Shown here piece by piece: positions 4,988 through 42,509 of a stretch of DNA of 64,000 nucleotides. The notes under the pieces were generated by a model. That model was not told the DNA's origin. It searched no databases and saw nothing but the letters and a program-made list of their open reading frames with translations. Source of the DNA: Streptomyces sp. NBC_01244 (GTDB lineage Bacteria > Actinomycetota > Actinomycetes > Streptomycetales > Streptomycetaceae); contig NZ_CP108488.1 in NCBI RefSeq assembly GCF_035987325.1, forward strand, positions 7,998,001 to 8,062,000, in the 5' to 3' direction. The number at the start of each line of letters is the position of its first letter. Position 1 is the stretch's first letter. A program made the translations under genes and the position numbers.

Positions 4988-7900
4988 CGCCCTTGGGAGA
5001 CCGTGATGCGGGAGGGCAGTGAGGCGACCCCCTCGAGCATTCTGGCGGGCAGGTCGATCTCGAAAGCCTCCAGGGTGACGATGTCCGCCAGTGTGGAGAC
5101 GTCGAGGCAGGGCGTGAGCGTCCCTGAGTACACCCCGGAGACGAGGCCGGGGAAGGCGTGCGGCAGCCGGTCGAGCACCAGCTGCGCCGCGGATACGCCG
5201 TCGTCATCGTGGAGGGTGAGGGCGGTGACCTGTGCCAGGACGACGTCAGGAGGAAGGGTCTCCAGCGAGACGGCCTCCAGCGCGAGGGTCCGGAGCGCAG
5301 GCAGCTCTGTCATCTCCTGCCAGTCCTCGGCGGAGATCCGGTCGGATAGGTGAGTGAGGGACGTCAGGGCGGCGAATCGGGAGAGTCCCTTCAGGTCCCG
5401 CTCCGACACGGCTCCCTCCACCCTGTTCAGGGCGTGCAGGGGCGCGCGCGGGGGAAGGGATTCCGGGGACCGGCACAGCGAAACGCCGTTGTAGAGCCAT
5501 AGGTGGGTCAGCGTCGTCAGGCGGTTCAGCCGGCTCAGGTCCATGGTGGGCGAGCCCTCGATGGCCAGGCGCCTGATCGGAAGCTCGTCGAGAGGGGAAA
5601 GGTCCGTGAGCGCGGGGCAGTGGAGGGCTGAGAACGATGCGAGCCCCGATTGGGCCCGCAGGAATTCCAGATCCGTCAGCGGGTGACTCGTCAGCCGGAG
5701 CTTCGTGATCTTGTGTCGGGAAAGGTACGACGTGAGCGTCTCCACGGACACGGCGTTCCTGACGTCCAGCGAGTCCGCGCGGAGGTTCAGGCGCTCCAGA
5801 TGGAGCAGTTGTGCGTCGGAGGTGACGCTGTAGTCGAGACCGTCAGGGTCGAGGTGTGCGATGACCTCATCGGCGTACCGGGCGCTGTCGAACCGCGACC
5901 AGGCCCACATGAGCTGGCTGCGCACCCTGAGGGAGGGGTGCCCGGAGTAGCCGGCCAGGAAGGGTATGGCCGCATCGGACGCGACCTTGGAAGCAGCGAT
6001 GACGGTGTAGTAGCAGTCCGATTCGTCCAGGCCGTCGGGGCCGGGCAGGAGGTCCAGGATCAGTGGACCCAAAGTGCCCAAGGCGCGGGCGCTGAACTCG
6101 TCGCGCGGCGTGATCAGCCTGGTAGTGCGTTCCTCCACCGCCTCGCGGACGGACGGGTCCAGGGTCGTGGCGTGCTCCAGGCAGGCGGCGGCGAGGAGGT
6201 ACACGCGGCGGTCTTCGGTGCGGTCGCCGAGGGTCAGCATGTCCTCGAAGAGGGTCACCCGCTCGCGGGGCCGGGCCAGGGCGACGGCCATGCGGATGAC
6301 GTCCTCCCACTGGTCGTCCGCGGCGTGCGCGGCGAGCAGGCCGAAGTCGCCCTCCTCCACCGCCGCCCGCGCGCCCAGGAAGTCCTGGAAGGTGCGGTGG
6401 ATGAAGTCCACCGTTCCCGGGGCCGGCTGGCGGAGCAGGCCGCTGCGCTGGAGGAAGTGGTCGAAGACGGCCGACGCCCCGCCCAGTGCCGCGGCCTCGG
6501 GGACGGCGGGCAGGGCCCGGCCGATGATGTCCTCGGCCTGGGAACGGTCCATCTCCGTACGGCCGTTCTTGATCAGCCAGTACGCGAGCCGCTGGAGGAG
6601 TTCGAGCTGCGGCTCCTCCCGGAGGTCGGGGACCTTCATGTCCCGTTCCCGGTCGCGGCGGCTGATCAGCATGGACAGCGCTGCCTCATACAAGTCCTTG
6701 CGTCCGTGGGGGAGATAGCCGCGCCGGTCGCGGTGGAGCGCGCAGATCAGGCCGCACAGCAGGGGGTTGGTGGCCAGCCTGCCGAGGTCGGCCTTCGTTG
6801 CGACGGCGGTGAGGAGCTGCTCCTCGTACACGTCGAGTTCGGCCGCGGACTCGGACCCGTCGCGGGCGGCCGCGTGCCAGCGCCTGATGAAGGTGGCGGT
6901 GTCGGCGCGCCCCATGGAGGACAGTGCCAGTTCGCCGAAGTCTTCCGCGGTGAGCCAGTCCTGGCCGACGGCCGACGGGCGTGAGGTGACCAGCCAGCGG
7001 TTGCCGTCGTCGTCGTACGTGTCGATGAGGTCCCGCAGCCAGCGGCGGGTCCGGTCCCGCTCCGGTTCCGGGATCTCGTCGATGCCGTCCACGAGGACCA
7101 GCCCCCGGCCGGCGGTCAGCACCCGGTGCTCCCATCCGGCGGGCTGGGAGCCGGCGAGCGGGCAGCCGATCGCGGCGAGGAAGTCCTTGGGGGCCGGCAA
7201 CCGCTCGCCGTGGCGGGTGAGGGTGCGCAGGGGGAGCACGAAGGGGACCCGGTCGCGGAGGTACGCGGGCCGGTCCGGGCGGTCCTGCTGCGCGGCGGTG
7301 ACCGCCAGCCACTGGACGAGCGTGGTCTTCCCCGAACCGGCCTCGCCCCGCAGGAGGACGCGGGGGGTGCGGGCCAGCGCTTGATCGGCGGGCTGGGTTT
7401 CCAGAGTCCGCTGCACCGCGAGGAAATCGTCCGCGGACTCGTAGGCGTCCCAGGAGATCTCCGTGCGCCCCAGCGGTGCAGCCTCCAGGCTCAGGTACGC
7501 CACGTCCAGCGGCCAGCGCGCGGGCGAATTGCTCAGGTCGATGCCGTAGATGGTGAGTTTGGAGTGCTTCTTCGCCACGTACGGCAGGTACGTGGCCTCG
7601 AACGCGGCGTCCGCCGCGTCGGGCAGCGGAGTGCGCCGGATCAACTCGTTCGTCTTCGAAGTCAGTTCGTCCACCGCTCGGGTCTGCCCGACCAGCGCAT
7701 GCGCCGTGAAGGTCTTGCGCTGGGTGAAGAACTCCAGGATGTGCAGGGAGGCGACGCCGAGCAGGGCCTCGTAGAAGTGCGTGGCGTCGGCGGAGAGGTG
7801 GCGCTCCGGGCGGTCGGCCGCGCGGCGCAGTTCGCGGGCGAAGGCTTCCGGCCCGAGGCGGACCGCGTCGACGTCCGTGATCGTGAGGTCGCCGAGGGCG

Positions 7901-27253: not shown

Positions 27254-29368
27254 ATGCGGCCGGACGGGGGCGCTGTGAGAGTGCGAGGTGTGACCACAGC
27301 CGAAGGTGCAGCCCCCGCCATATCCGCAGCGGCGCCACCCGTGCTCGACCGGCGATCGCGCAACATCGTGTTCGGCACGGTCATGCTCGGCGTGCTGCTG
27401 GCGGCCCTGGACCAGACGATCGTGGGCACGGCGCTGCCCACGATCGTGGCGGACCTCGGCGGCGGGGACCACATGTCCTGGGTCGTGACCGCGTACCTGC
27501 TCACCGAGACGGTCGCGACCGTGCTCGTCGGCAAGTTCGGTGACCTCTTCGGCCGGAAACTGGTCTTCCAGATCTCCGCGATCGTCTTCATCACCGGCTC
27601 GTTCCTGTGCGGCCTCGCGAGCAACATGACCCTGCTCATCGTGTGGCGGGGCATCCAGGGCATCGGCGCCGGCGGGCTGATGGTCACCGCGATGGCCCTC
27701 ATCGCCGACGTGGTCCCGCTGCGCGAACGAGGGAAGTACCAGGGCGCGATCGGCGCCGTCTTCGGCGTCGCCACGGTGATCGGGCCGCTGCTCGGCGGAC
27801 TCTTCACCGACCACCTGACCTGGCGCTGGGCGTTCTACGTCAACGTGCCGATCGCCATCCTGGTCGTGGTGGCCGCCGCGAAGACGATCCCCTCCGTGCG
27901 CGCCGCGGGCAAACCGGTCATCGACTACCTGGGCATCGCGATGGTCGCGATCGGCGCGAGCTCGCTGATCCTGGCCACGAGCCTGGGCGGGAACGAGTAC
28001 GCCTGGAGCTCTCCCCTCATCGTCGGGCTCTTCGCCGCCGGCGCCGTGGCACTCGCACTGTTCTGCCTGGTGGAGATGCGCGCCGCACAGCCGATGCTGC
28101 CGATGCGGCTGTTCCGCAATCCCGTCTTCTCGGTCTGCTCCGTCCTCAGCTTCGTCGTCGGCTTCGCGATGCTCGGCGCGATGACCTTCCTGCCGACGTA
28201 CCTGCAGTACGTGGACGGGGATTCGGCCACCGTCTCCGGAGTGCGCACGCTGCCGCTGGTCATCGGCCTGCTGATCGCATCGGTCTTCAGCGGCAACGTC
28301 ACGAGCAAGACCGGGCACTACCGGATCTTCCCGATCGTCGGCTGCGCGGTGATGGGCCTCGGGCTCTACCTGCTGTCGCGGATGGGGCCGCAGTCCAACG
28401 CCTGGCTGGAATCGCTGTACATGTTCGTCCTCGGCACCGGCATCGGCCTGTGCATGCAGGTGCTGACCATCGCCGTGCAGAACACCGTGGACTACGCCGA
28501 CCTCGGCACCGCGACCTCGGGCGTCACCTTCTTCCGTACCCTCGGCAGCGCCTTCGGGACCGCCGTCTTCGGCACGATCTACGCCAACACCCTGAAGCCC
28601 GCGCTGGCGAAGGGGGTCGAGGAGGCCGCGCGCGCCACCGGCCAGGACCCAGCACAGCTGGGCGCGGCGGCGCAGAGCCCACAGGGCGTGCACGGGCTCG
28701 ATCCGGCGGCGGCCGGGCCGGTCATCGACGCGTACGCGGACACCCTGCACACGGTGTTCCTGTGGACCGTGCCGGTGGCGGTGGTCGGATTCGTCGTCGC
28801 GCTGTTCCTCAAGCAGGTCAAGCTGCGCGACAGCGCGCGGGCCGGTTCCACGGACATGGGCGACGGCTTCGGCTCGCCCGCCACGGCCTCCGGGGACTCG
28901 GCGAAGCTGCTGGAACTGGCGGTCGGCAAGCTGGTGCGGAGCATGGGACCGGAGACGGCCCGCGGGATCGTGAACTCCTCGGACACCCGGCTGGACATGG
29001 CGGGTGCGTGGGCGGTCATGCAGGTGGACCTGATGACCCGCACCGTCGGCTACGCGAGCCTGGGACTCATCGCGTCGCGCCGCCACCTGCCCCCGGAGGT
29101 GCTGCTGCCGGTCTTCGAACGGATGGTGGACGAGGGCTACATGACGCGGCAGAACGGCTTCTACACGCAGACCCCGGCGGGCGAGCGGGAAGCGGGCGTC
29201 ATCTCGGACGCGTGGGCCACGTGGCTCGGCGACCAGCTGGAGAAGGACCGGGGCCGTCCGCGCAGCGCGGAGCTGCGGGCCGCCGCGGACGCGATCGCGA
29301 AGCGGCTGCTGGCGGAGGACCTGGGCGACGGGAACTTCGCCCCGCGTGCGATGGCGGGGCGGCCGTAG
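27254..29368 (+). CDS. DHA2-type MFS drug exporter with a C-terminal cytoplasmic winged-helix-like domain
   Basis: 704 aa. Residues 35-520 form a 14-helix transporter with the DHA2 signatures LDQTIVGTALPTI and GKFGDLFGRK and motif C GAVFGVATVIGPLLGG. Residues 550-690 are an added soluble part (YASLGLIASRRHLPPEVLLPVFERMVDEGYMTRQNGFYTQTPAGE) that reads like a MarR-type winged helix: helices, then a wing after GYM. Exporters of this group remove drugs or metabolites using the proton gradient. The extra domain may regulate the pump. It is 101 bp upstream of the GPP34 gene, same strand. Confidence 0.87.
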   Translation: MRPDGGAVRVRGVTTAEGAAPAISAAAPPVLDRRSRNIVFGTVMLGVLLAALDQTIVGTALPTIVADLGGGDHMSWVVTAYLLTETVATVLVGKFGDLFGRKLVFQISAIVFITGSFLCGLASNMTLLIVWRGIQGIGAGGLMVTAMALIADVVPLRERGKYQGAIGAVFGVATVIGPLLGGLFTDHLTWRWAFYVNVPIAILVVVAAAKTIPSVRAAGKPVIDYLGIAMVAIGASSLILATSLGGNEYAWSSPLIVGLFAAGAVALALFCLVEMRAAQPMLPMRLFRNPVFSVCSVLSFVVGFAMLGAMTFLPTYLQYVDGDSATVSGVRTLPLVIGLLIASVFSGNVTSKTGHYRIFPIVGCAVMGLGLYLLSRMGPQSNAWLESLYMFVLGTGIGLCMQVLTIAVQNTVDYADLGTATSGVTFFRTLGSAFGTAVFGTIYANTLKPALAKGVEEAARATGQDPAQLGAAAQSPQGVHGLDPAAAGPVIDAYADTLHTVFLWTVPVAVVGFVVALFLKQVKLRDSARAGSTDMGDGFGSPATASGDSAKLLELAVGKLVRSMGPETARGIVNSSDTRLDMAGAWAVMQVDLMTRTVGYASLGLIASRRHLPPEVLLPVFERMVDEGYMTRQNGFYTQTPAGEREAGVISDAWATWLGDQLEKDRGRPRSAELRAAADAIAKRLLAEDLGDGNFAPRAMAGRP

Positions 29369-30299: not shown

Positions 30300-30677
30300 T
30301 CAGCGAAGGCCCGGGCCGCCCGCGGGGTCCGGGGTGACGGTGGTCGGATAGTCGTACGACGGTACATGCGGGAGATGCGGCGCCAGGTCGGGCCGCCAGG
30401 CGCGCAGGGCCGCCGCGGACGGGGCGTAGAGGGCCGCCGGGATCTCGGCCGGGGAGAACCAGGACCAGCAGGCGATCTTGTGGGGCTCGGTGATCGTGGC
30501 GGTGCCCTCGGCGGCCGAGGTGACGGCCGCGGCCGTCAGCTGGGTCAGGCCGGAATCGGCGTCGAGCAGGATGGAAACGATCCGGATCTCCTCGGGGGCC
30601 GCGCGCAGCGCGGTCTCCTCGGCCAGCTCGCGGGCGGCGGCCTGTTCGAAGCCCTCCCCCGGGTCGACCTTGCCGCC
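30300..30677 (-). pseudogene. Nudix hydrolase, 3' fragment (125 codons) cut off by the mobile element
   Basis: The minus strand is open from 30677 to a TGA at 30300-30302. It begins inside the Nudix box (GGKVDPGEGFEQAAARELAEET), with catalytic REL-EE intact, and continues to a complete C-terminus. There is no start codon or ribosome-binding site: the sequence to the right (30678 on) is the end of the recombinase element. The missing front part is at 39099-39236 on the same strand. Joined, they give WELP-GGKVDPGE in frame. Nudix enzymes hydrolyse nucleoside diphosphate derivatives; the split copy cannot be a working enzyme. Confidence 0.93.
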
Positions 30678-30704
30678 GGTTCTCTAGGCTACTCTCGGTT
30701 GTCG
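30678..30704 (+). repeat. Left inverted end of the recombinase element
   Basis: Begins GGT, has TAGGC at 30685-30689 and ends TTGTCG at 30699-30704. The right end, read on the opposite strand from 39098 inward, also starts GGT, has TAGGC (two bases further in) and ends TTGTCG at positions 22-27. These shared blocks are the likely recombinase binding sites. Confidence 0.7.
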
Positions 30705-30736
30705 CTTCGTTACTCGTTCATCCCGGAGCTGCGCAC

Positions 30737-32335
30737 GTGAACGTCCTGGAACACTGGACCGTTGACTTCTACGACTTCACCGTCCCACCGCCTGCCGCGA
30801 AAGATCCCGAGCTCCCCGATCTCGGCGATCTGCATGGCAGAGCCGCCCGCAACGGGGCCCGCCACGGCACGCCCATCCTCCTGCCGCCGAGTGGCCGCCC
30901 CGATTCCCGGATCAACCTCTTCTTCCGGGAAGGCCGGATGGCCACCTCGCAGCCGGGAACCTGGCGGCGCTACGCGTACACGCTCGTTGTGTGGTTGGAC
31001 TTCCTGAACGCCGTCGATACGACATGGGACCGGGCCACGGTCCGTGACGTCGAGGCGTTCAAGGACTGGCGCATCACCGACACCCGGAACGCGGAGCGGG
31101 TGCGGGCCACCTCGTTCGACACCGACCGTGCCGGCCTCAACAGCTTCTACACGTGGGCTAGTTCCCGGTTCGGGATCGCGAACCCGGTCGCGACCGTGCG
31201 TGCCGATAACGAGGCAGCGACACGACAGGCGTACGGCCGGGGGCGCCGTGACCCGCTGCGTCCGGCGGGTTCGACGAGCCGTCAGGTGAAGTGGCTGCTG
31301 CGGGATGCCTTGGAGCAGTGGCGCGACATCGGGCTACGCGGATACGGCTTCGACGGGCTGCGGCGCGCGGGGCGGCAGGCCGGCAGGTTCAACGAGGACC
31401 GGGACGCGGCCTTCGCCGACGGCCTGTACGGGACCGGGCTTCGGCTGCGTGAGTGGGCGAGCATCCTCGACGTCGAACTCCCGGTCTCGGGCGGCGAGCG
31501 GATGGGCACGGCGTGGCTCGCGGCCAAGTGCGTCAAGGGTGGCCGCGCCGGCCGGGCGTACTGGATTCCCCGGCAGGTACTGCGGTCGGTCGAGGGCTAC
31601 CTGGACCCACTGGAGGGATCCCGAGCCGAGGTGATCAGCCGGGCACAGCGGCACGGTCGGTACGAGCGGCTCAGCGGCGTGCGTATCGTGATCGGCCACG
31701 ATCCCCGTACCCGGCAGGTGCATGTGGCCGCTGCGGGCGGCTCGCAATCAGTGGCCCTGGACGACCTGGCGCCGGACGACCGCCGGCTGTTGTTCCGCCG
31801 GACGACGCAGGGCCTGGAGCCGCTGTGTGTGTGGCTGTCGGTGAACGGCCTACCGAAGAAACCGCACAGCTGGGAAGACACCTTCGATGCCGCGAACCGA
31901 CGGGTGGCCGAAGCATGGCTGGGCAGGACCGATCCGAACGGGCGGCTGAACGAGGGGCAGCGGGATCAGATGCGGCGCGAGTGTCCCCTGTGGGCGACGC
32001 CCCACATGTGCCGGCACTCCTTTGCCTTGAAGTGGTTCTCGATCCTGTCGCTCGTCGAGGAGCGCCGTTTGGAGGGCTTCTCGCCCGACGAGATCGAGGA
32101 CTTCCGCGAACAGCTCGGCGACATCTGGCTGCAGTTGGCCGTGCTGCTTGGGCATCGACATCCCGACACTACGCGGGAGCACTACCTGGAGCCCTTCACC
32201 GGCCTGCAGGTCTCGTACCTGATGGCGCTCCTGGACGACGACGAGAGTTCAGGGGTGGACACGCTGGTGCGGATCTTCGCACGTCACGGTGGGTCGGTCA
32301 TGGGGCCGGCCGTCGCGGCCGGGCGAACGCAGTGA
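30737..32335 (+). CDS. Tyrosine recombinase A of the element (TnpA-like, complete active site)
   Basis: 532 aa from a GTG with GGAG 8 bp upstream, 59 bp inside the left end. It has an N-terminal core-binding helical domain (WRRYAYTLVVWLDFLNA). The catalytic residues are complete: Arg236 (GTGLRLREW), His423 and Arg426 (HMCRHSF), the GHRHPDTT box and nucleophile Tyr483 (REHYLEP). It should cut and rejoin the att sites. It is larger than Tn554 TnpA because of an insert between the Arg and the HxxR box. It is the only one of the three with a textbook active site. Confidence 0.93.
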   Translation: MNVLEHWTVDFYDFTVPPPAAKDPELPDLGDLHGRAARNGARHGTPILLPPSGRPDSRINLFFREGRMATSQPGTWRRYAYTLVVWLDFLNAVDTTWDRATVRDVEAFKDWRITDTRNAERVRATSFDTDRAGLNSFYTWASSRFGIANPVATVRADNEAATRQAYGRGRRDPLRPAGSTSRQVKWLLRDALEQWRDIGLRGYGFDGLRRAGRQAGRFNEDRDAAFADGLYGTGLRLREWASILDVELPVSGGERMGTAWLAAKCVKGGRAGRAYWIPRQVLRSVEGYLDPLEGSRAEVISRAQRHGRYERLSGVRIVIGHDPRTRQVHVAAAGGSQSVALDDLAPDDRRLLFRRTTQGLEPLCVWLSVNGLPKKPHSWEDTFDAANRRVAEAWLGRTDPNGRLNEGQRDQMRRECPLWATPHMCRHSFALKWFSILSLVEERRLEGFSPDEIEDFREQLGDIWLQLAVLLGHRHPDTTREHYLEPFTGLQVSYLMALLDDDESSGVDTLVRIFARHGGSVMGPAVAAGRTQ

Positions 32336-34185
32336 GGGGCGGGCGCCGGGCGGCGCTTCCGCCGTCCGGTTGGTCCCCGCCCGAGCGACTGCCCGACGGA
32401 GTGTCGGGGGCGGTGGTGCTGTTCCACGAGGAGAGCACAGGGCGGAGCGTCCGATTCGACTGCTCCGACCTGCCGGTCGCCGAGCCGGTAAGGAATTGGC
32501 TGGTCCGGAGGCTGGCAGAGCGGGCGGGCGCCCGCAGCGGGGTGAAGCGCGCGACGTCATTCCGTACCGGTTACCAGGTCGTCCGTGACTTCGCCCACGC
32601 CCTCGCTCAGTGCGAACTGTCGCCGGGACGCCCGGCGGACATCACGGCCGAGCACATCAGGGCCTTCATGGCCCGGTATGAGGACCCTCAGACCCGTCGT
32701 ACCTGCACGGGCCGTCTGCGGATCGTGCTGCGCGACTGCCCGGAGCTCCCCGAATCCGCCCGACGTGAGCTGTTCGAGACCCGGCTGCCCGTCAAGCAGG
32801 CGTCACAGCAGGTCACGGCGTACCCCGAGGGCGAGTGGCAGCAGATCATGACCGCGTTGCGGCGGGACATCCGCCTATGCCGGGACCGGATCCGGGCCGG
32901 GACCCGTTTGCTGGAGCGGTTTCGTGCGGGTGAGGTCGGCGATGGCCACGACGCCGAGTTGGCCCAGCTCCTGGATCTGTTCGTGCGGACCGGCGACCTG
33001 CCCCGCCGGAGTGACGGGGGTGGCGCTCCGGCCGTCCAGCGGTGCGGCGGTGTAGCCACGGTAATGCGCATGCTGACGTTGTCGCAGCAGGAGGCCACCG
33101 CCTTCGCCATTCTCCTGTCCGTGCTGACGGCGGAGAACCTCGGCACGGTCGCGGGGTGGCCCGCGCTGCATCAGCGATCGGACGGCATCGGTGACGAGGA
33201 AGTGGCGGTCGCGCTGGTGGAGCAGCGAAAGCCCCGGCGCGGCCCGGAGCGCGAGCACCGGGTGGCAGCGGTCGAGGATCTTCCCGTGTCCCTCCGGAGC
33301 ATGCTGGAACGGACTCCGGGAGACGAAGTGCTGTTCCACTCTCCGCTACGGGTCTATGAACTCCTGGTGGAGCTGACCGCGCCCGCTCGGCTGATCAGTG
33401 GCATGCCCGGTGCCTTCGTCCACCGACGACTCGCCAATCCGGCCAAGCCGAACTCTCTGTGGTCGGAGGAGGTCCGCGTGGAGCGCTGGGCACGAACCCG
33501 CGGTTTCCCCACCACCAACCGGACCGAGGAGGGCGGGCCTCCCGGTATCGACATGCGTCGCGTCCGTCAGACCGCTCTGGAGTCACAGCGCCGTCCCGTG
33601 TCGCACACGGCACGGACCCTGCGCGATCATTACCTGCGCCGCAGCCAGACCGTCCGAGATCAGAGCCAGTACGTGGTCGCCGAAGCTTTGCAGGGTGAAG
33701 TCGACAAGGCCCGCGAGGCCGCCAAGGTCGTCGTGCTCCCGTCCCGTCTGCTCGCCCTGGCGGCCGAGGACCTGCCCACGGCGGCCGCGCAGGCCGGTGT
33801 CGCCCCAGAGACGTTGAGGAGCATGCTCGCTGCCGAGCGGGACACCGCGGTCGTCGCCTGCCGGGATCACCTGGACAGCCCACACGCTCCTGCCGGAGAA
33901 GCATGTCCGGCATCGTTCCTCCACGCCTGCCTGAACTGTCCGAACGCGCGAGCGCTGCCGCACCACCTTCCGGTTCAGATCGCACTGCACGACCAGCTGA
34001 AGGCGCTGCGGTCCAACATCGACCCGCGGCTGTGGGCGGCCCGCTACGCGACGCCGTTGGCCCGGCTACGGGACATCCTCAGCCACTACAGCGGGGCCGA
34101 GCACGCCCACGCACGCGCATCGATCACCGATCGGCACCACGCTCTCATCGTCTCGCTCTTGGACGGACGGACCGACCTGCGATGA
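32332..34185 (+). CDS. Recombinase B of the element (TnpB-like, degenerate active site)
   Basis: 617 aa from a GTG whose GTGA overlaps the recombinase A stop, so it is translationally coupled. Its length is close to Tn554 TnpB. A SAM-like N-terminal region (YQVVRDFAHALAQCEL, HIRAFMARYED) is visible. The C-terminal box reads MRRVRQTALESQRRPVSHTARTLRDHYLRRS. Here Arg409/Arg412 stand for HxxR, and His433-Tyr434 for the GH...Y end. A Cys/His cluster (CPASFLHACLNC) follows. It probably works with A and C in a complex; whether it is itself catalytic is doubtful. Confidence 0.82.
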   Translation: MRGGRRAALPPSGWSPPERLPDGVSGAVVLFHEESTGRSVRFDCSDLPVAEPVRNWLVRRLAERAGARSGVKRATSFRTGYQVVRDFAHALAQCELSPGRPADITAEHIRAFMARYEDPQTRRTCTGRLRIVLRDCPELPESARRELFETRLPVKQASQQVTAYPEGEWQQIMTALRRDIRLCRDRIRAGTRLLERFRAGEVGDGHDAELAQLLDLFVRTGDLPRRSDGGGAPAVQRCGGVATVMRMLTLSQQEATAFAILLSVLTAENLGTVAGWPALHQRSDGIGDEEVAVALVEQRKPRRGPEREHRVAAVEDLPVSLRSMLERTPGDEVLFHSPLRVYELLVELTAPARLISGMPGAFVHRRLANPAKPNSLWSEEVRVERWARTRGFPTTNRTEEGGPPGIDMRRVRQTALESQRRPVSHTARTLRDHYLRRSQTVRDQSQYVVAEALQGEVDKAREAAKVVVLPSRLLALAAEDLPTAAAQAGVAPETLRSMLAAERDTAVVACRDHLDSPHAPAGEACPASFLHACLNCPNARALPHHLPVQIALHDQLKALRSNIDPRLWAARYATPLARLRDILSHYSGAEHAHARASITDRHHALIVSLLDGRTDLR

Positions 34186-36311
34186 CCTACCCAGCCCACC
34201 TTCCTGTTCCGGTGCCGGCCATCCCGGTCCACGTTCCCTGGCCGGACGACGACGTTCCCGTACTGCGCAACCGGCCCGTCAGGCTCGGCACGGACACCGC
34301 CCGCCTGTCCCACTTCGGCGACGACGTCTGGAACATCCGCCCCGCCCACCGCGACGCCCACACGGATGTCGGCAACCTCAACCTGCATGTCTTCCCGGAA
34401 GCGCTCCGCCAGCAGTTCCGAGCCGTCCTCTTGGCCGCACTCGACCATCCCCAGCCCGTGGAGCCGGGCGGACGCCAGCGGTCCGCCGAGTACATCGGAA
34501 TCGGCTCGATGCCCGTGCTCGTCCGCGACCTGCGGCTGTTCGCCCACTGGATGCACAGCCAGAACCTCGGGCAGATCGGCGAGGTCACCGACCATGACCT
34601 CGATGCCTACGTGCGCCACGTCATCGGGACGACCACGTCGCCCCGGCAGAAGGCGAACGCCCTGAGCGCGGTACGTACCCTCTGGCTGTTCCGTGACGTA
34701 CTTCCCACCCCATGCCGCCTCACCACCGGATTTCCCTGGACGGGGACCACCGCCAACCAGCTCGTCGGCCTCCGGGCGGCGAGCGGCGAGAACAAGCGCC
34801 CCCGTATCCACGACGACACGATGGAGGCGCTGCTCGCCTGGTCACTGCTCATGGTGGAGCAGATCGGTCCGGACATCCGCGACGCCTGGCACGAGTACGT
34901 CCAACTCTGCCAGGGAGAGCACCCCTCCCAAGCCATCTACTCCGGAACCGCAGGACCCCGCCTTCGCACCTATGCGGACTTCTGCGGTCGGACCGGCACT
35001 CCTCTGCCTGGGGGCCCTGGCCCCAACGGTTCCCAGATCAACTACGGTCATGTGCTCCGCCTCGTCGGTCTGGACGACAAGGGCGCATTCAGCCTGGCCC
35101 AGAAGCGGTGGCTGGCTCAGCAGGGTTTGGACGTCGCCCCGCAGAGTACGGTTGGCGCCATCACAGGGCAGGTCCAGGGACGCCCCTGGCGTGATACTCC
35201 CCTCAGCGTCGGGGAGCTGCCCGGACTGTGGCGTCGCCTGACCGGGGCCCTGTTCACCGTCGTTTGCTATCTCTCCGGAATGCGCCCCGGCGAGGTACTG
35301 GCGCTGCGTCGCGGCTGCCGCGGCACGGACGAGGCGACTGGGCAGCTCGTCGTCCAGGGCCACCGAGGCAAGGGCTACGACCGCGCCCCGGACACCCCGG
35401 AATCAGCCGAACCCACACGCCCGTGGGTGGTCGTCGGTGTCGTGCACGAGGCCATCGCCCTGCTGGAGTCCCTGCACGACCAGCCCTACCTCTTCCCGGC
35501 GCAGCTCCGCGCGGGCTCCGTCCGTCCGTCCACAACGCACGCCCGTACCTGTCACTCGATCAACCGGGATATCGCCGACTTCGCTGCCTGGGTGAACCAG
35601 ACCGTCCGCCGCGTAGACGGCAGCGCGCCCATCCCCAATGACCCCGCCGGGAACCTGAACGCCAGCCGCTTCCGCCGCACTCTGGCCCGGTTCATCGTCC
35701 GCCGCCCGCGAGGGCTGATCGCCGCCGCCCTCCAGTACGGTCACGTCGACACCAAGGTGACACTCAACTACGCGGGCGCACCGGACACCGAGTGGCTCCA
35801 GGACGTCGCCGTCGAGAAGCTCGAGCTCGTCCTGGAGCAGATCACCGATGACGCCCAGCGGCTCGCGGCAGACGAGCACGTCAGCGGACCGTCCGCCGAC
35901 GAGTACCGCCGCAGAATCACTGGCACGGCCGACTTCCCGGGCCGTACGGTCATCAGCCCCCGCAGTGCTGCGCGCCTGCTGGCCGGTACGGACCCCCAGG
36001 TGCACCACGGCGAGGGCATGACCTGCGTTTGGCGCCCTGAGACAGCCGCTTGTCGCGCCTCTGGCCTCGCCCAAGGCCTTCCCGAACCGGTCGGCCCCGA
36101 CGAGGGCGAATGCCGGTCCAGCTGCACCAACCTCGCTTACACCGACCGGGATATCGCCCGACGCAAGCAAGATCTCCGCTCCCTGGAAGCGACCGCGTCC
36201 GATCCACTGGTACCCAGGCCCCTGCGCGACCGGGCTGCGGCGCAGGCCGAGCGCGTCGCCTCTCTCGTCCACCGCCACGAGCAGCACCGCACCGAAGGAG
36301 CTCCGGCATGA
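34182..36311 (+). CDS. Recombinase C of the element (large tyrosine recombinase with C-terminal Cys cluster)
   Basis: 709 aa from an ATG overlapping the B stop by 4 bp. Active-site parts: Arg368 (SGMRPGEVLAL), a box RFRR (496-499) in place of HxxR, QYGHVDTKVT and Tyr530 (LNYAG). The C-terminus has several Cys (MTCVWRPETAACR, ECRSSCTNLAYTD) that may bind zinc, followed by a basic helix. Tn554 has only two recombinases plus TnpC, so this is an extra one. The next gene overlaps by 4 bp. Confidence 0.88.
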   Translation: MTYPAHLPVPVPAIPVHVPWPDDDVPVLRNRPVRLGTDTARLSHFGDDVWNIRPAHRDAHTDVGNLNLHVFPEALRQQFRAVLLAALDHPQPVEPGGRQRSAEYIGIGSMPVLVRDLRLFAHWMHSQNLGQIGEVTDHDLDAYVRHVIGTTTSPRQKANALSAVRTLWLFRDVLPTPCRLTTGFPWTGTTANQLVGLRAASGENKRPRIHDDTMEALLAWSLLMVEQIGPDIRDAWHEYVQLCQGEHPSQAIYSGTAGPRLRTYADFCGRTGTPLPGGPGPNGSQINYGHVLRLVGLDDKGAFSLAQKRWLAQQGLDVAPQSTVGAITGQVQGRPWRDTPLSVGELPGLWRRLTGALFTVVCYLSGMRPGEVLALRRGCRGTDEATGQLVVQGHRGKGYDRAPDTPESAEPTRPWVVVGVVHEAIALLESLHDQPYLFPAQLRAGSVRPSTTHARTCHSINRDIADFAAWVNQTVRRVDGSAPIPNDPAGNLNASRFRRTLARFIVRRPRGLIAAALQYGHVDTKVTLNYAGAPDTEWLQDVAVEKLELVLEQITDDAQRLAADEHVSGPSADEYRRRITGTADFPGRTVISPRSAARLLAGTDPQVHHGEGMTCVWRPETAACRASGLAQGLPEPVGPDEGECRSSCTNLAYTDRDIARRKQDLRSLEATASDPLVPRPLRDRAAAQAERVASLVHRHEQHRTEGAPA

Positions 36312-36742
36312 CCACACGCCGTCCCCGAGACCTCAGCGCCGAACGCTCCGCGCTCCTAGCAGCCGCCGACCGCCTCCTGGAAGGCACCCCGCTGCGATCG
36401 GAGTCCGGTCGTCTCACCGTGACCGAGCTGCTGCGCGAGTCTGGTCTGCGCCGGGACGTCGTCTACGGTGACCACAAGGACCTTGTCGAGGAGTTCCAGT
36501 ACCGTGTTCGAGCCCAACAGCGCACACCTGCGATTGCTCAGTCACTGGCCGACGAGAACGCCCAGCTGAAGCAGAAGCTGGCGGATGCCACGACCGCACT
36601 GTCCAAGGAACGCGAGATCACCGCGGCCCTACGTCGCCTCGTCGCCGAACTCGACCTGGAACTGCACGCGGTGCATGAGGGCTCCGGACCCGCACGCATC
36701 ACCACCCTGCCGGCACGGCGGCGTCCAGGCTCACGGGTCTGA
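36308..36742 (+). CDS. TnpC-like accessory protein (DUF6262-type)
   Basis: 144 aa from an ATG in an ATGA overlap with recombinase C. The N-terminal half looks like a helix-turn-helix (RLTVTELLRESGLRRDVVYGDHKDLVEEF). The second half is a coiled coil (QSLADENAQLKQKLADATTALSKEREITAAL). Size, position and coiled coil match TnpC of Tn554, which influences orientation and efficiency of transposition. Here it closes the four-gene recombinase operon. Confidence 0.8.
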   Translation: MTTRRPRDLSAERSALLAAADRLLEGTPLRSESGRLTVTELLRESGLRRDVVYGDHKDLVEEFQYRVRAQQRTPAIAQSLADENAQLKQKLADATTALSKEREITAALRRLVAELDLELHAVHEGSGPARITTLPARRRPGSRV

Positions 36743-36876
36743 ATCCGCCGCACCAGGGCCACCCCGGCGAAACGCATCTCATCCGCTGCTCGACCGTTCA
36801 GCGGCAGGACGGGCTTCCAGCGACACCAGGCCGTACGGCGGGGAAGATCGTGCGGCAGCTGCTGGAGGCGGGGTGA

Positions 36877-37020
36877 GAGATCGATCCGGAAGATCTGGCC
36901 CACATCTCGCCGTACCTGACCGAGCACATCTACTGGTTTGGCGAGTACTCCACGCACGAGCTCGGTATCCAGCCGGAGGCGTAGGGGCCGAAGCTGGACG
37001 TCGACTTCACCCGATTCCTG
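36877..37020 (+). pseudogene. Remnant of a Tn3-family transposase C-terminus
   Basis: One reading frame gives EDLAHISPYLTEHIYWFGEYSTHELGIQPEA, a TAG at 36982, then GPKLDVDFT. As I recall them, streptomycete Tn3-family transposases end with this kind of ISPYLTEHI-FGEYSTHELG-LDVDF run. Stops also lie just upstream (36874) and within it, so it is dead. It shares its last 14 bp with the TetR 3' end. Upstream 36743-36873 shows no recognisable part of the transposase. It suggests the cargo arrived by, or was hit by, a Tn3 element. Confidence 0.65.
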
Positions 37021-37636
37021 GAAACCCTGAGTCGGGAGACGGTGCGAAGAGGTAGCGGTCCATCATGAGAGCGGCGTCGGCGAGGATCTCGGGGTCGCCT
37101 TCGGCGCTCTCGCGGAAGGCAAGGTCGAGCAGGTTGCCCCCGACCTCCACGGCGAGTCGAGCGCGTCGCCGGAACTGCTCGGTGTCCGGCATCGCATAGC
37201 CGCGGACGAGTGCCTTGTGCACACTCCCGGCGATTTGCAGGTCCGTCTGCCGGCCGTACGCACGCAACGCGTCGATACGCGGCCCGTAGTACCAGACACG
37301 GCGGTAGCCGCGCTCCGTGCGGAAGCGGTCCGCATAGGCGGCGAGCAGCTTCTCCAGCAGCTCCTGCGAGCGCGGCGGCAAGGGCTCCTCGGTGATCCGC
37401 TCGGTGATCCGCACGTCCATCTCAAGCCAGCGCCGGACCAGGGCGGCGACGATCGCTTCCTTGTCGGCGAAGTACCGGTAGAGCACGCCGACCGAGACTC
37501 CCGCTTCGGCAGCGATGAGCTTGGTGCCCAGCTCGTCGTAGGAAGTCGTCTCCAGCAGCCTGGCCGTCGCCTCAAGAATGAGGGCCACCTTCTCCCGGCT
37601 GCGCTGTTGTTGTGGTGTGTGGACTTGCTCAGCCAT
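37007..37636 (-). CDS. TetR-family regulator (cargo)
   Basis: 209 aa from an ATG preceded by AAGGAG; a GTG five codons upstream lacks proper spacing. Its HTH is plain (ILEATARLLETTSYDELGTKLIAAEAGVSVGVLYRYFADKEAIVAAL). The ligand domain is unassigned. Divergent from an MFS gene with a 44-bp gap holding a 17-bp palindrome; by analogy with TetR/TetA-type pairs it should repress the transporter until the exported compound binds. Confidence 0.92.
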   Translation of the reverse strand: MAEQVHTPQQQRSREKVALILEATARLLETTSYDELGTKLIAAEAGVSVGVLYRYFADKEAIVAALVRRWLEMDVRITERITEEPLPPRSQELLEKLLAAYADRFRTERGYRRVWYYGPRIDALRAYGRQTDLQIAGSVHKALVRGYAMPDTEQFRRRARLAVEVGGNLLDLAFRESAEGDPEILADAALMMDRYLFAPSPDSGFPGIG

Positions 37637-37663
37637 CTGACTCCTTGACACCTTCCAAAACCA

Positions 37664-37680
37664 GAACCAGAGTCTAGTTC
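37664..37680. promoter_or_regulatory. 17-bp palindromic operator touching the MFS start codon
   Basis: GAACCAGA-G-TCTAGTTC: 8-bp arms, 7 of 8 matched, ending at the base before the MFS ATG (37681). It lies in the only space between the divergent TetR and MFS genes, so bound TetR would block both starts. The MFS mRNA has no room for a Shine-Dalgarno sequence and is probably leaderless. Confidence 0.72.
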
Positions 37681-38940
37681 ATGTTATTCGGTAGGGGGAT
37701 ACCCCGCACACGACTCGGGCCGAGCTTCAATCGGGTTTGGGCCTCGATCACGGTATCCAGCCTCGGTGACGGCATGAGCTTCGTTGCTCTGCCGCTCCTC
37801 GCGGCGCAACTGACCGCCGATCCGCGGCAGATCGCGATGGTGTCCTTGGCGGAGCAGCTGCCCTGGCTGCTCCTCGGCCTGCTCTCCGGTGTTCTGGCGG
37901 ACCGGTTCGACCGCCGCCGCATCCTGTGGCTCGTCGACGCGGCCCGGGCCTTGCTTGTCGGGGCGCTCGCCGCGGCGGTGGCAGCCGACATGGTGACGAT
38001 TCCGCTCCTGAGTCTCGTCGCCTTCCTGCTCGGCTGTGGGCAGACGCTCTACAGCGGCGCCTGGGCGGGCATGGTCCCTGCACTGGTTGCACCCAGCGGG
38101 CTCACCCGGGCCAACGCGCGTCTGCAAGCAAGCTCCCTGATCACCGACACTCTGCTCGGAACGCCGCTGGGCGCGCTGCTGTTCGGCATCGCCACCGCAC
38201 TACCCTTCGCCGTCGACGCGGTGTCCTTCGCCACCGCTGCCGCACTGGTATTCATCCTCCGCGGGAACTTCCAGCCCCGTTCCCAGCCGGCACCGAAGAC
38301 GTGGACGGCCCTGCGCCGTGACACGACCGAGGGGGTCCGGTGGCTCTGGCGGCACCACTTGCTGCGCCGGCTCTGCCTGGCATCCGGGATCACCAACCTC
38401 GTCGGCGGAGGCTTGATCGCCATCCTGGTGCTCTACGCCCGGCAAACTCTTGGCCTGAGCGATCTAGGCTTCGCCCTGCTGGTCGCCTCCTTCGCGCTCG
38501 GCGGCGTGGTCGGGGCAATGTCGACCCCACGCCTCACCGCACGCTTCGGCACTCCACGGGTCCTCAGGTTGACCGCTGTGGGCACTGCCATCGCTGCCGC
38601 CGCCGCAGGCGCTGCGACCTCCGGGCCCATAGCCGGCATGGGGATCGCCGCATACGGAGCGGCGAGCCTGGCATGGAACGTCACTGCGGTGTCGCTGCGC
38701 CAGTCACTTGTGCCTGCCGAACTGCTGGGGCGCGTGGCCATGGCCTACCAGATGGTCATCGGTAGTGGCACCGCACTGGGTGCCGTGGCAGCCGGCTTCA
38801 CCGCCCACGCCTTCGGACTGCGAACCCCTTTCTATACGGGGGCGGTCCTCCTGTTCGCCGCCAGCCTGATCAGTACAAGATCCGTCCAGAGGGCCGCACT
38901 GCCTTCCCGGGGTGCCGTGCCCGAGCGGCGAACCAGGTGA
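37681..38940 (+). CDS. MFS efflux transporter (cargo)
   Basis: 419 aa with 12 predicted membrane helices. The loop-2 motif GVLADRFDRRRILW and first helix SLGDGMSFVALPLLAAQL place it among 12-helix MFS exporters related to EntS and macrolide-type pumps (MFS_3 group). It most likely gives the host export of a toxic or signalling compound under TetR control. It is the only recognisable benefit gene in the mobile element. Confidence 0.88.
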   Translation: MLFGRGIPRTRLGPSFNRVWASITVSSLGDGMSFVALPLLAAQLTADPRQIAMVSLAEQLPWLLLGLLSGVLADRFDRRRILWLVDAARALLVGALAAAVAADMVTIPLLSLVAFLLGCGQTLYSGAWAGMVPALVAPSGLTRANARLQASSLITDTLLGTPLGALLFGIATALPFAVDAVSFATAAALVFILRGNFQPRSQPAPKTWTALRRDTTEGVRWLWRHHLLRRLCLASGITNLVGGGLIAILVLYARQTLGLSDLGFALLVASFALGGVVGAMSTPRLTARFGTPRVLRLTAVGTAIAAAAAGAATSGPIAGMGIAAYGAASLAWNVTAVSLRQSLVPAELLGRVAMAYQMVIGSGTALGAVAAGFTAHAFGLRTPFYTGAVLLFAASLISTRSVQRAALPSRGAVPERRTR

Positions 38941-38996
38941 CCTTCTCGATCCGTATCCATGCCACCGTGTCGATCAACACTGAATCCGCTTCCGCT

Positions 38997-39077
38997 CATC
39001 CGCATACGGGGCGGATGGGGACCTTATCGGGACGCACCACAGCATCGGCCGGAGCCCGACAACAAGCGTCCCGACAA
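38997..39077 (+). repeat. Right subterminal region: hairpin and 15-bp-spaced direct repeats
   Basis: CATCCGC (38997-39003) pairs with GCGGATG (39011-39017), a possible terminator after the MFS gene. CCCGACAA occurs twice, at 39055-39062 and 39070-39077, start-to-start 15 bp. TCGGGACG near 39028 is nearly its inverse. Such iterons are typical accessory sites for recombinases at element ends. Confidence 0.55.
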
Positions 39078-39098
39078 GGGACTTGCCTAATGAACACC
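39072..39098 (-). repeat. Right inverted end of the recombinase element
   Basis: Read on the minus strand from the Nudix junction it starts GGTGTTCAT, then TAGGC, and ends CTTGTCG. It mirrors the left end in its outer GGT, the TAGGC block and the inner TTGTCG, all within 27 bp. Confidence 0.7.
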
Positions 39099-39236
39099 CG
39101 GCAGTTCCCAGCGCCCGTCGTGCGCCTGGCCGAGCAGCACCCGGCCGTCGGGGCCGACGACGACCACACCGACTCCGACGACGGCGTGGGGACGGGGGAC
39201 GGCGCGTCCGGTGGGTGCGCCGGATGCTGTGCTCAT
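39099..39236 (-). pseudogene. Nudix hydrolase, 5' fragment (46 codons)
   Basis: Starts with ATG at 39236 behind AAGGA and runs MSTASGAPTGRAVPRPHAVV through VVVVGPDGRVLLGQAHDGRWELP, the classic first strand of a Nudix domain. It stops making sense exactly at the Nudix box: after ELP come only GVH and a TAG (39087-39089) supplied by the element. The matching GGKVDPGE half is at 30677-30300. A 49-residue truncated peptide may still be translated. Confidence 0.93.
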
Positions 39237-41552: not shown

Positions 41553-42509
41553 CTAGGTGTATTGACCTGCAGGGTTGTTGACGCGGCTGATGGGTGGTTT
41601 GCCGTCGAGTGCGGTGTGGCAGCGGTGGTGGTTGTAGGTGTGGAGGAAGTCTGTCAGGGCTGCTGTCCGTTCGTCGTTTGAGGTGTAGGGCCGTAGGTAG
41701 GCCCATTCGTCCAGCAGGGTGCGGTTGAAGCGTTCGACTTTGCCGTTGGTCTGGGGCCGGTAGGGGCGGGTGAGTTTGCCGGTCGCGCCGAGGTCGGCCA
41801 GGACGTTCTTCCAGGCCAGGCCTTTGCGGTAGGCCCAGGCGTTGTCGGTCAGGACCCGTTCGATGCGGGTGATGCCCTGGGAGAGGAAGAACGCGGCCGC
41901 GCGGGTGAGGAAGGCCGCGCAGGTGGCGGCTTTCTCGTCTGGGTGGATCTCGCTGTAGGCGAGGCGGGAGTGGTCGTCGACGGCGGAGTGGACGTAGTCG
42001 AAGCCCATGGCGGAGCGGGTGGTGCGGCCGGCCTGGCGGCCCAGGACTTTGTGGCCGCCGCCGTCGGGGATCCGGCCGAGTTTCTTCACGTCGATGTGGA
42101 CCAGCTCGCCCGGGCGGTCGCGTTCGTAGCGGCGGATCACGGTGCCGGTGGGGCGGTCGAACCAGGCGAGCCGGTTCAGGCCGTGGCGGGTCAGGATCCG
42201 GTGGACGGTCGAGGCGGGCAGGCCCGGGACCGGGCCGATCCTCGCGGGGCCCAGCTTGCGGGTCCGACGCAGGTCGCAGACCTTCGCCTCGATGGCGGCC
42301 GGGGTCCGGTGCGGCGTCCTGTGAGGCCGGCTGGACCGGTCGTGAAGACCCGCCTCGCCCTCGGCCCGCCACCGGCGCACCCACTTGTGGGCAGTGGCCC
42401 GCGATATGCCCGTCTCGGCTGCTACGTGGGCGACCGGACGTCCCGATGCGACCCGATCGACCAGCAGGCGCCTACCGAAGACAGTCAGCCGGGCATTACG
42501 GTGGGACAC
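41553..42509 (-). CDS. IS481-family transposase (DDE)
   Basis: 318 aa from a GTG preceded by GGAGG. It has an N-terminal helix-turn-helix (VAHVAAETGISRATAHKWVRRWRAEGEAGLHDRSSRPHR) and an rve-type catalytic domain: Asp in HIDVKKLG, Asp in VLTDNAWAY, Glu in NGKVERFNRTLLDEW. The TAG stop (41553-41555) is not in the IS; it comes from the duplicated CTAG target. The coding region is uninterrupted, so the element may be active. Confidence 0.95.
   Translation of the reverse strand: MSHRNARLTVFGRRLLVDRVASGRPVAHVAAETGISRATAHKWVRRWRAEGEAGLHDRSSRPHRTPHRTPAAIEAKVCDLRRTRKLGPARIGPVPGLPASTVHRILTRHGLNRLAWFDRPTGTVIRRYERDRPGELVHIDVKKLGRIPDGGGHKVLGRQAGRTTRSAMGFDYVHSAVDDHSRLAYSEIHPDEKAATCAAFLTRAAAFFLSQGITRIERVLTDNAWAYRKGLAWKNVLADLGATGKLTRPYRPQTNGKVERFNRTLLDEWAYLRPYTSNDERTAALTDFLHTYNHHRCHTALDGKPPISRVNNPAGQYT

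Follow-up and report, generated by a model that had tools for sequence, protein, structure and literature searches.

The window, by which we mean the whole 64,000-nucleotide stretch of DNA analysed (G000:C1:7998001-8062000, from a 10.0-Mb genome in three contigs), contains a Nudix gene in two parts with a recombinase-bearing element between them (Table 1). The three recombinase genes of this element, tnpA, tnpB and tnpC, and a small fourth gene follow one another with overlaps of 4 bp each, and the four-gene module was complete in 17 of the 20 regions that we fetched around tnpB matches, the incomplete ones being L054 and L058, both truncated where the contig stops, and L059, which is without tnpA. 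Residues R236, H423, R426, H473 and Y483 of TnpA (pattern R..HxxR..H..Y) are invariant in all six proteins aligned and are presumably the catalytic residues of tyrosine recombinases. Separate alignments show that TnpB has no arginine at the presumed box-I position and that TnpC carries GMRPGE. TnpB had no match in Pfam, and the fourth protein was matched below the cut-off by both DUF6262 (E 0.067) and EntA_Immun (E 0.006). The cargo measures 2.35 kb and its content varies among relatives. The last 150 bp of the element have a GC content of 60% against 69% for the whole, a modest difference, and a terminal inverted repeat between 39085-39094 and the left end (GCCTANNGAA / TTCNNTAGGC) is clear over about 10 bp. 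At 2.5 kb from the element there is a frame (41553-42509, minus strand) resembling a transposase of the IS481 type.

Table 1. Features of the interrupted Nudix gene and of the element within it (window positions).
Feature	Position	Strand	Remarks
Nudix gene, C-terminal part (GGKVDPGE...)	30300..30673	-	Stop at 30300-30302; Pfam NUDIX 3.3e-12
attL core CGCCGG, native to window gene	30674..30679		CGCCGG in 6/7 orthologs, CGCCCG in the seventh
Element, 8,415 bp	30680..39094	+	Ends set against C3 and eight further bounded elements
Left end TTCTCTAGGC, with TTGTCG at 30699-30704	30680..30704	+	Kept in the ten junctions compared
tnpA, 532-aa tyrosine recombinase	30737..32335	+	Pfam Phage_int_SAM_1 1.3e-5; alignment
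tnpB, 617-aa recombinase-like protein	32332..34185	+	GTGA overlap with tnpA; alignment
tnpC, 709-aa recombinase-like protein	34182..36311	+	Weak XerD/SAM-like matches; alignment
Small fourth gene, 144 aa	36308..36742	+	Overlaps tnpC; DUF6262 below cut-off, E 0.067
Cargo: TetR-type regulator	37007..37651	-	Pfam TetR_N 5.4e-14
Cargo: MFS transporter	37681..38940	+	Pfam MFS_3 1.5e-34
Right end: CCCGACAA twice (39055-39062, 39070-39077), then ACTTGCCTAATGAA	39055..39094	+	
attR core CACCCG, foreign to window gene	39095..39100		Equals native core of the C3 target gene
Nudix gene, N-terminal part (M...RWELPG)	39101..39236	-	Abuts the other half in L085-L092

The C-terminal half of the interrupted gene enters the Pfam NUDIX profile at position 35, and the N-terminal half on its own, 46 residues long, gave no match in NCBIfam. 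A script that joined the two flanks, leaving a single 6-bp core between them, produced one open frame of 171 codons. Moreover, both halves lie side by side in all eight related genes examined (L085-L092), and in four of these (L085, L087, L089 and L090) the uninterrupted gene is found no more than 1.5 kb from a homolog of the MFS gene at 27254-29368 of the window, a neighbor that was visible only as far as the 1.5-kb flank fetched around each related gene. The first-pass annotation had taken the frames at 39099 and 30677 for the halves of one Nudix box, predicted that excision would restore a 171-codon gene, held a recombinase-borne element responsible for the split and proposed to look for the empty site in related genomes. 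Its positions were confirmed, and its attribution of the split to such an element is supported by the uninterrupted related genes and by the identical copy that the same genome has in another Nudix gene. The bounds it had given, 30678-39098, span 8,421 bp, which is the element plus one core; in refined form, the element proper occupies the 8,415 bp of 30680-39094, and where it had seen no flanking repeat longer than 2-4 bp there is an imperfect 6-bp direct repeat with four of six bases alike. That the Nudix gene should be naturally split or decayed, with the element adjoining it by chance, has a negligible probability given the single open frame of the joined flanks; nothing was found in favor of it, and neither halves apart without an element nor a naturally split domain was seen among the eight related genes, whose uninterrupted state rules this explanation out.

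A second copy of the element lies on C3, a 187,536-bp contig of the same genome, to which bases 30680-39086 are identical (8,407 bp, no mismatches). Outside the left end the window and C3 are alike at 47 of 69 bases, i.e., the flanks are different, and the C3 copy interrupts another Nudix gene at the same codons as in the window gene. Its left flank is the C-terminal half of that gene (Pfam 7.8e-11), and at the opposite end of the contig a methyltransferase-Nudix frame is halted at ...FELPG. Because each contig end holds half of the interrupted methyltransferase-Nudix gene, the two ends belong together. These observations suggest that C3 is a circular replicon, and it is probably a plasmid. 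Orthologs of the C3 gene are uninterrupted in L124, L125 and L127, as well as in the matched stretch of L126. The contig starts 8 bp short of the right end of the element, and the 9 bp absent at the join (8 from the tail of the element plus the first base of the core) mean that the right junction was not seen whole. These absent bases would fit an assembly artefact, in which one copy or its cores had been misjoined or mispolished, but we consider such an error very improbable, as each copy retains both halves of its own target gene and the same ends and target are found in independent assemblies.

The cores at the junctions carry information on the direction of transposition. Ten junction pairs were compared, of which seven have perfect 6-bp repeats, the window 4/6 and L050 5/6 identical bases, and C3 an incomplete core. 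Perfect repeats are uninformative as to the origin of each core, and this origin could be read in no copies but those of the window and C3; the two orthologs nearest to the L050 gene disagree in the native core. Orthologs of the window gene have CGCCGG (6/7) or CGCCCG (1/7) and never CACCCG (0/7), the core at the right of the window copy, while CACCCG is present in three of the four C3-gene orthologs, the most distant of them (L127) having CGCCGG. A tally of cores made by script over 47 Nudix sites, kept out of 62 loci after removal of duplicates and of those that failed the filter, gave 24 CGCCGG, 9 CGCCCG and 3 CACCCG, and the three known CACCCG sites are the C3-gene orthologs. In both copies, then, the target's own core stands on the left and a foreign one on the right (at the C3 right junction, as far as it is seen), like the "att-brought-in" rule of SE and Tn554. 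Because the foreign right core of the window copy is the native core of the C3 gene, the window copy most likely came from the C3 site, and the core sequences suggest that the element jumped from the 187-kb replicon to the chromosome. CGCCGG being the commonest core, the C3 copy would itself have come from an earlier site that had it. A different history, in which the right cores were swapped after insertion by reciprocal exchange or gene conversion between the copies instead of being carried from the donor, would explain why each copy, to the extent that the C3 junction is visible, bears the other's core on its right. We find it unlikely, as in each copy the arms beyond the cores match the gene to which they should belong, related elements are known to follow the carriage rule, and the right core of C3 needs no link with the window because half of the tallied sites (24/47) have CGCCGG.

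A scan of named species with the tnpA alignment yielded 16 loci, 13 of which have a Nudix box as their left flank. The remaining three are L076 (nuclease-like by eye), L078, whose left flank held no target gene that we could recognize, and L082, a 56-residue tnpA remnant with a flank that is not Nudix. Together with the window, C3, L048 and L052, the 13 scan loci make up 17 distinct insertions (L070, L072 and L075 duplicate L049, L051 and L050, respectively). All 17 left flanks, those from other actinobacteria included, give a Pfam NUDIX match in a single register: 15 enter the profile at position 35, and L079 and L052 at 36 or 37. The codons at the target, those of the start of the Nudix box, are for P-G-G or A-G-H and similar. 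By eye, the 17 insertions represent about ten different Nudix genes, and their cores are as unlike as CGCCGG and CGGCCA. Matches to tnpB were found in 113 of 392 same-genus genomes (E up to 0.001), mostly distant, and matches to tnpA in 6 of 394 genomes of a class-level sample, the source genome included (E up to 1e-60). The right-end pattern occurred 16 times in 14 of the 392 same-genus genomes: six occurrences are in Nudix genes (L171, L173, L174, L177, L178 and, by eye only, L179, whose N-terminal half had no Pfam match), and seven are at an HGD-type motif (L169, L172, L175, L176, L180, L181 and L184, with Pfam run on L169 alone and returning APH). The target gene was not recognized in L170, which ends in GLWGIPG without a Pfam match, nor in L182 and L183, and the right ends of L052, L073, L079 and L080 were not found with the patterns tried.

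On these sequence comparisons, the element is very probably a transposon of the GInt/SE/Tn554 kind whose attachment site is the DNA encoding the start of the Nudix box across a gene family. A 22-bp consensus of the target, searched with up to three mismatches, matched this genome eight times and a reversed control pattern four times; by a motif test a Nudix box is present at four of the eight matches, including the sole one with a single mismatch, and the other four are non-Nudix. The DNA consensus by itself thus hints at how the site is recognized but does not prove it. It may also be that the element is site-specific in the ordinary way, recognizing a loose target of about 20 bp, and that its Nudix hits are a by-product of codon use in GC-rich genomes and bring no selected advantage. 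Recombinases can, after all, read only DNA, and half of the consensus matches are outside Nudix genes; nevertheless, every one of the 17 scanned insertions is in a Nudix gene, spread over different genes with unlike cores, and we regard this explanation as possible but rather doubtful. It differs from a Nudix-box attachment site more in purpose than in mechanism.

For a transposon attached to the Nudix box, the recombinases would form a circle that retains 6 bp beside the left end of the element, and this circle would recombine with a Nudix-box site resembling the loose consensus of about 20 bp, so that the native core would remain on the left and the carried core would end up on the right. 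The window copy would derive from an element in a methyltransferase-Nudix gene, most simply the C3 copy. PF00293 has 42 matches in this genome, the two interrupted genes counted; with about forty Nudix sites, therefore, the element would have many places in which to land, and each would cost one enzyme.

Much of this recalls systems already described. GInt (ginABCD; Bardaji et al., 2017; PMC5385486), to which we liken the element by description, is a genomic island that carries three integrases. According to the sections of that paper available to us, GInt combines three integrase genes and a small fourth one in an operon, an arrangement like that of the four overlapping genes here; it has a variable cargo (2.5-70 kb in GInt) followed by a short AT-rich 3′ end; and imperfect repeats with a 6-nt staggered exchange, although the repeats measure 10-17 nt in GInt and are 6-bp cores here. 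The same sections describe a fourth protein of TnpC-like or helix-loop-helix character and excision as a circle that requires all four genes. On the other hand, the GInt targets they report are single genes (an ABC transporter gene, the ends of ssb and others) and not a gene family; the protein without the first arginine is GinC, whereas here it is apparently the second one, TnpB, and not the third; and the hosts they name are Proteobacteria, Verrucomicrobia, Bacteroidetes and Firmicutes, with actinobacteria not among them. SE, the strand-biased circularizing integrative element from Gammaproteobacteria, resembles our element, in the portions of its description at hand, in having four core genes, imperfect inverted ends (13-19 bp in SE) and a 6-bp core, with the native core at attL and the donor core at attR as in the window and C3 copies, but its gene set, intA-tfp-intB-srap, is unlike ours, and we set it apart by description (Idola et al., 2023; PMC10214605). 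The att-brought-in rule is also reported, in the excerpts available, for Tn552-II of the Tn554 family, from a strain with one copy in the chromosome and another on a plasmid; that family has two recombinases plus TnpC, an att of 7 bp in Tn552-II and other targets (PMC12486829), whereas our element has three large recombinase-like genes. RIT elements, as far as they are treated in the portions at hand, likewise have three tyrosine recombinases in a row, but in the archetype the proteins measure 315-410 aa and the inverted repeats 34 bp (PMC10214605), compared with 532, 617 and 709 aa, about 10 bp of clear terminal repeat and a fourth gene here.

From the parts of the literature on Streptococcus ICEs with serine-integrase triplets that we could consult, one type of ICE enters several MutT/Nudix genes, as our element does, but these ICEs have serine integrases, are conjugative and span tens of kb (PMC10269897; PMC4701971), unlike our element, which has tyrosine-recombinase motifs and whose genes are recombinases, TetR and MFS. 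That such unrelated elements are also described in several Nudix genes hints that this enzyme family is a favored landing place. In the literature searched for Nudix targets, which comprised few subscription journals and no preprints, we saw no tyrosine-recombinase element aimed at the Nudix box. By analogy with GInt, SE and Tn552-II, the mechanism is known in kind. A site-specific transposon can be precise and yet have many sites when protein function keeps the DNA alike, and this family of elements offers natural pairs of occupied and empty sites in which the 6-bp core would be a record of the donor and of the direction of the jump.

Among nine distinct bounded elements, six were found to bring along their own Nudix gene (L048, L049, L068, L069, L071 and L077, with the L068 cargo gene as query), 78-91% like the query, near the right end and in the same orientation as the target gene. 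None was detected with that query (E up to 0.001) in the window/C3 element, L051 or L050. Pfam confirmed the carried Nudix gene in the four on which it was run, L048, L068, L070 (the same locus as L049) and L077, and in these four the DNA to the right of the core encodes F-Y-I and not W-E-L; the carried genes may therefore be poor targets for the element. Our guess is that a carried gene replaces the broken enzyme. Tn552-II, too, carries a gene resembling its target, for which a rescue role is proposed in the available part of the source (PMC12486829).

The tnpA tree, built from 39 rows, has a clade of 13 (100/99), all of them in Nudix genes, the identical window and C3 copies being counted as two rows. 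The placement of L052 and L079, which also have Nudix targets, is uncertain; a single origin of the Nudix target for all was recovered in 23% of bootstrap trees, and these two may have gained it separately. Four tnpA rows in phosphotransferase genes make up a separate clade (100/100). A sister group with the same right end breaks phosphotransferase-family genes at the HGD motif, which is presumably the catalytic motif of these kinases; it comprises the seven HGD-type right ends listed above and L053, L145, L146 and L147. The left flank of L145 matched APH just over the cut-off, and no phosphotransferase cargo was found among the genes annotated downstream in two of these elements, L146 and L147. 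Left flanks of other relatives matched SNase (L159), radical SAM (L150) and DNA polymerase III alpha (L065), those of L143, L144, L149 and L160 gave no convincing family, and for rows still further away LigA and DprA targets were recognized solely by eye. It is an evenly balanced proposition that a large group of actinobacterial three-recombinase elements target the DNA of catalytic or otherwise strongly conserved motifs in large enzyme families (the Nudix box, the phosphotransferase HGD and perhaps SNase or radical-SAM motifs), one family per clade, and that most close relatives of our element carry a Nudix gene with an altered site as a spare for the broken enzyme. The family provides a testable link between recombinase clade and enzyme motif.

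A phage origin was also considered and rejected, tnpA having no match in 50,697 phage records. Among plasmid records, 190 of 72,556 had a tnpA match, all below 60% identity, and eight places were inspected. In L159 (7617-7937 and 8001-13897), on plasmid pNOCA01 of Nocardioides, the place annotated as DrmB of a DISARM system holds a tnpA-like stretch, which adjoins a truncated thermonuclease gene. In L150 (G738:C1, left flank 5603-5953), the relative sits in a radical-SAM gene with its junction near an apparent cysteine motif. Finally, one genome harbors two near-identical distant relatives with similar left flanks (L055 and L056, G110:C1; 36% tnpB).
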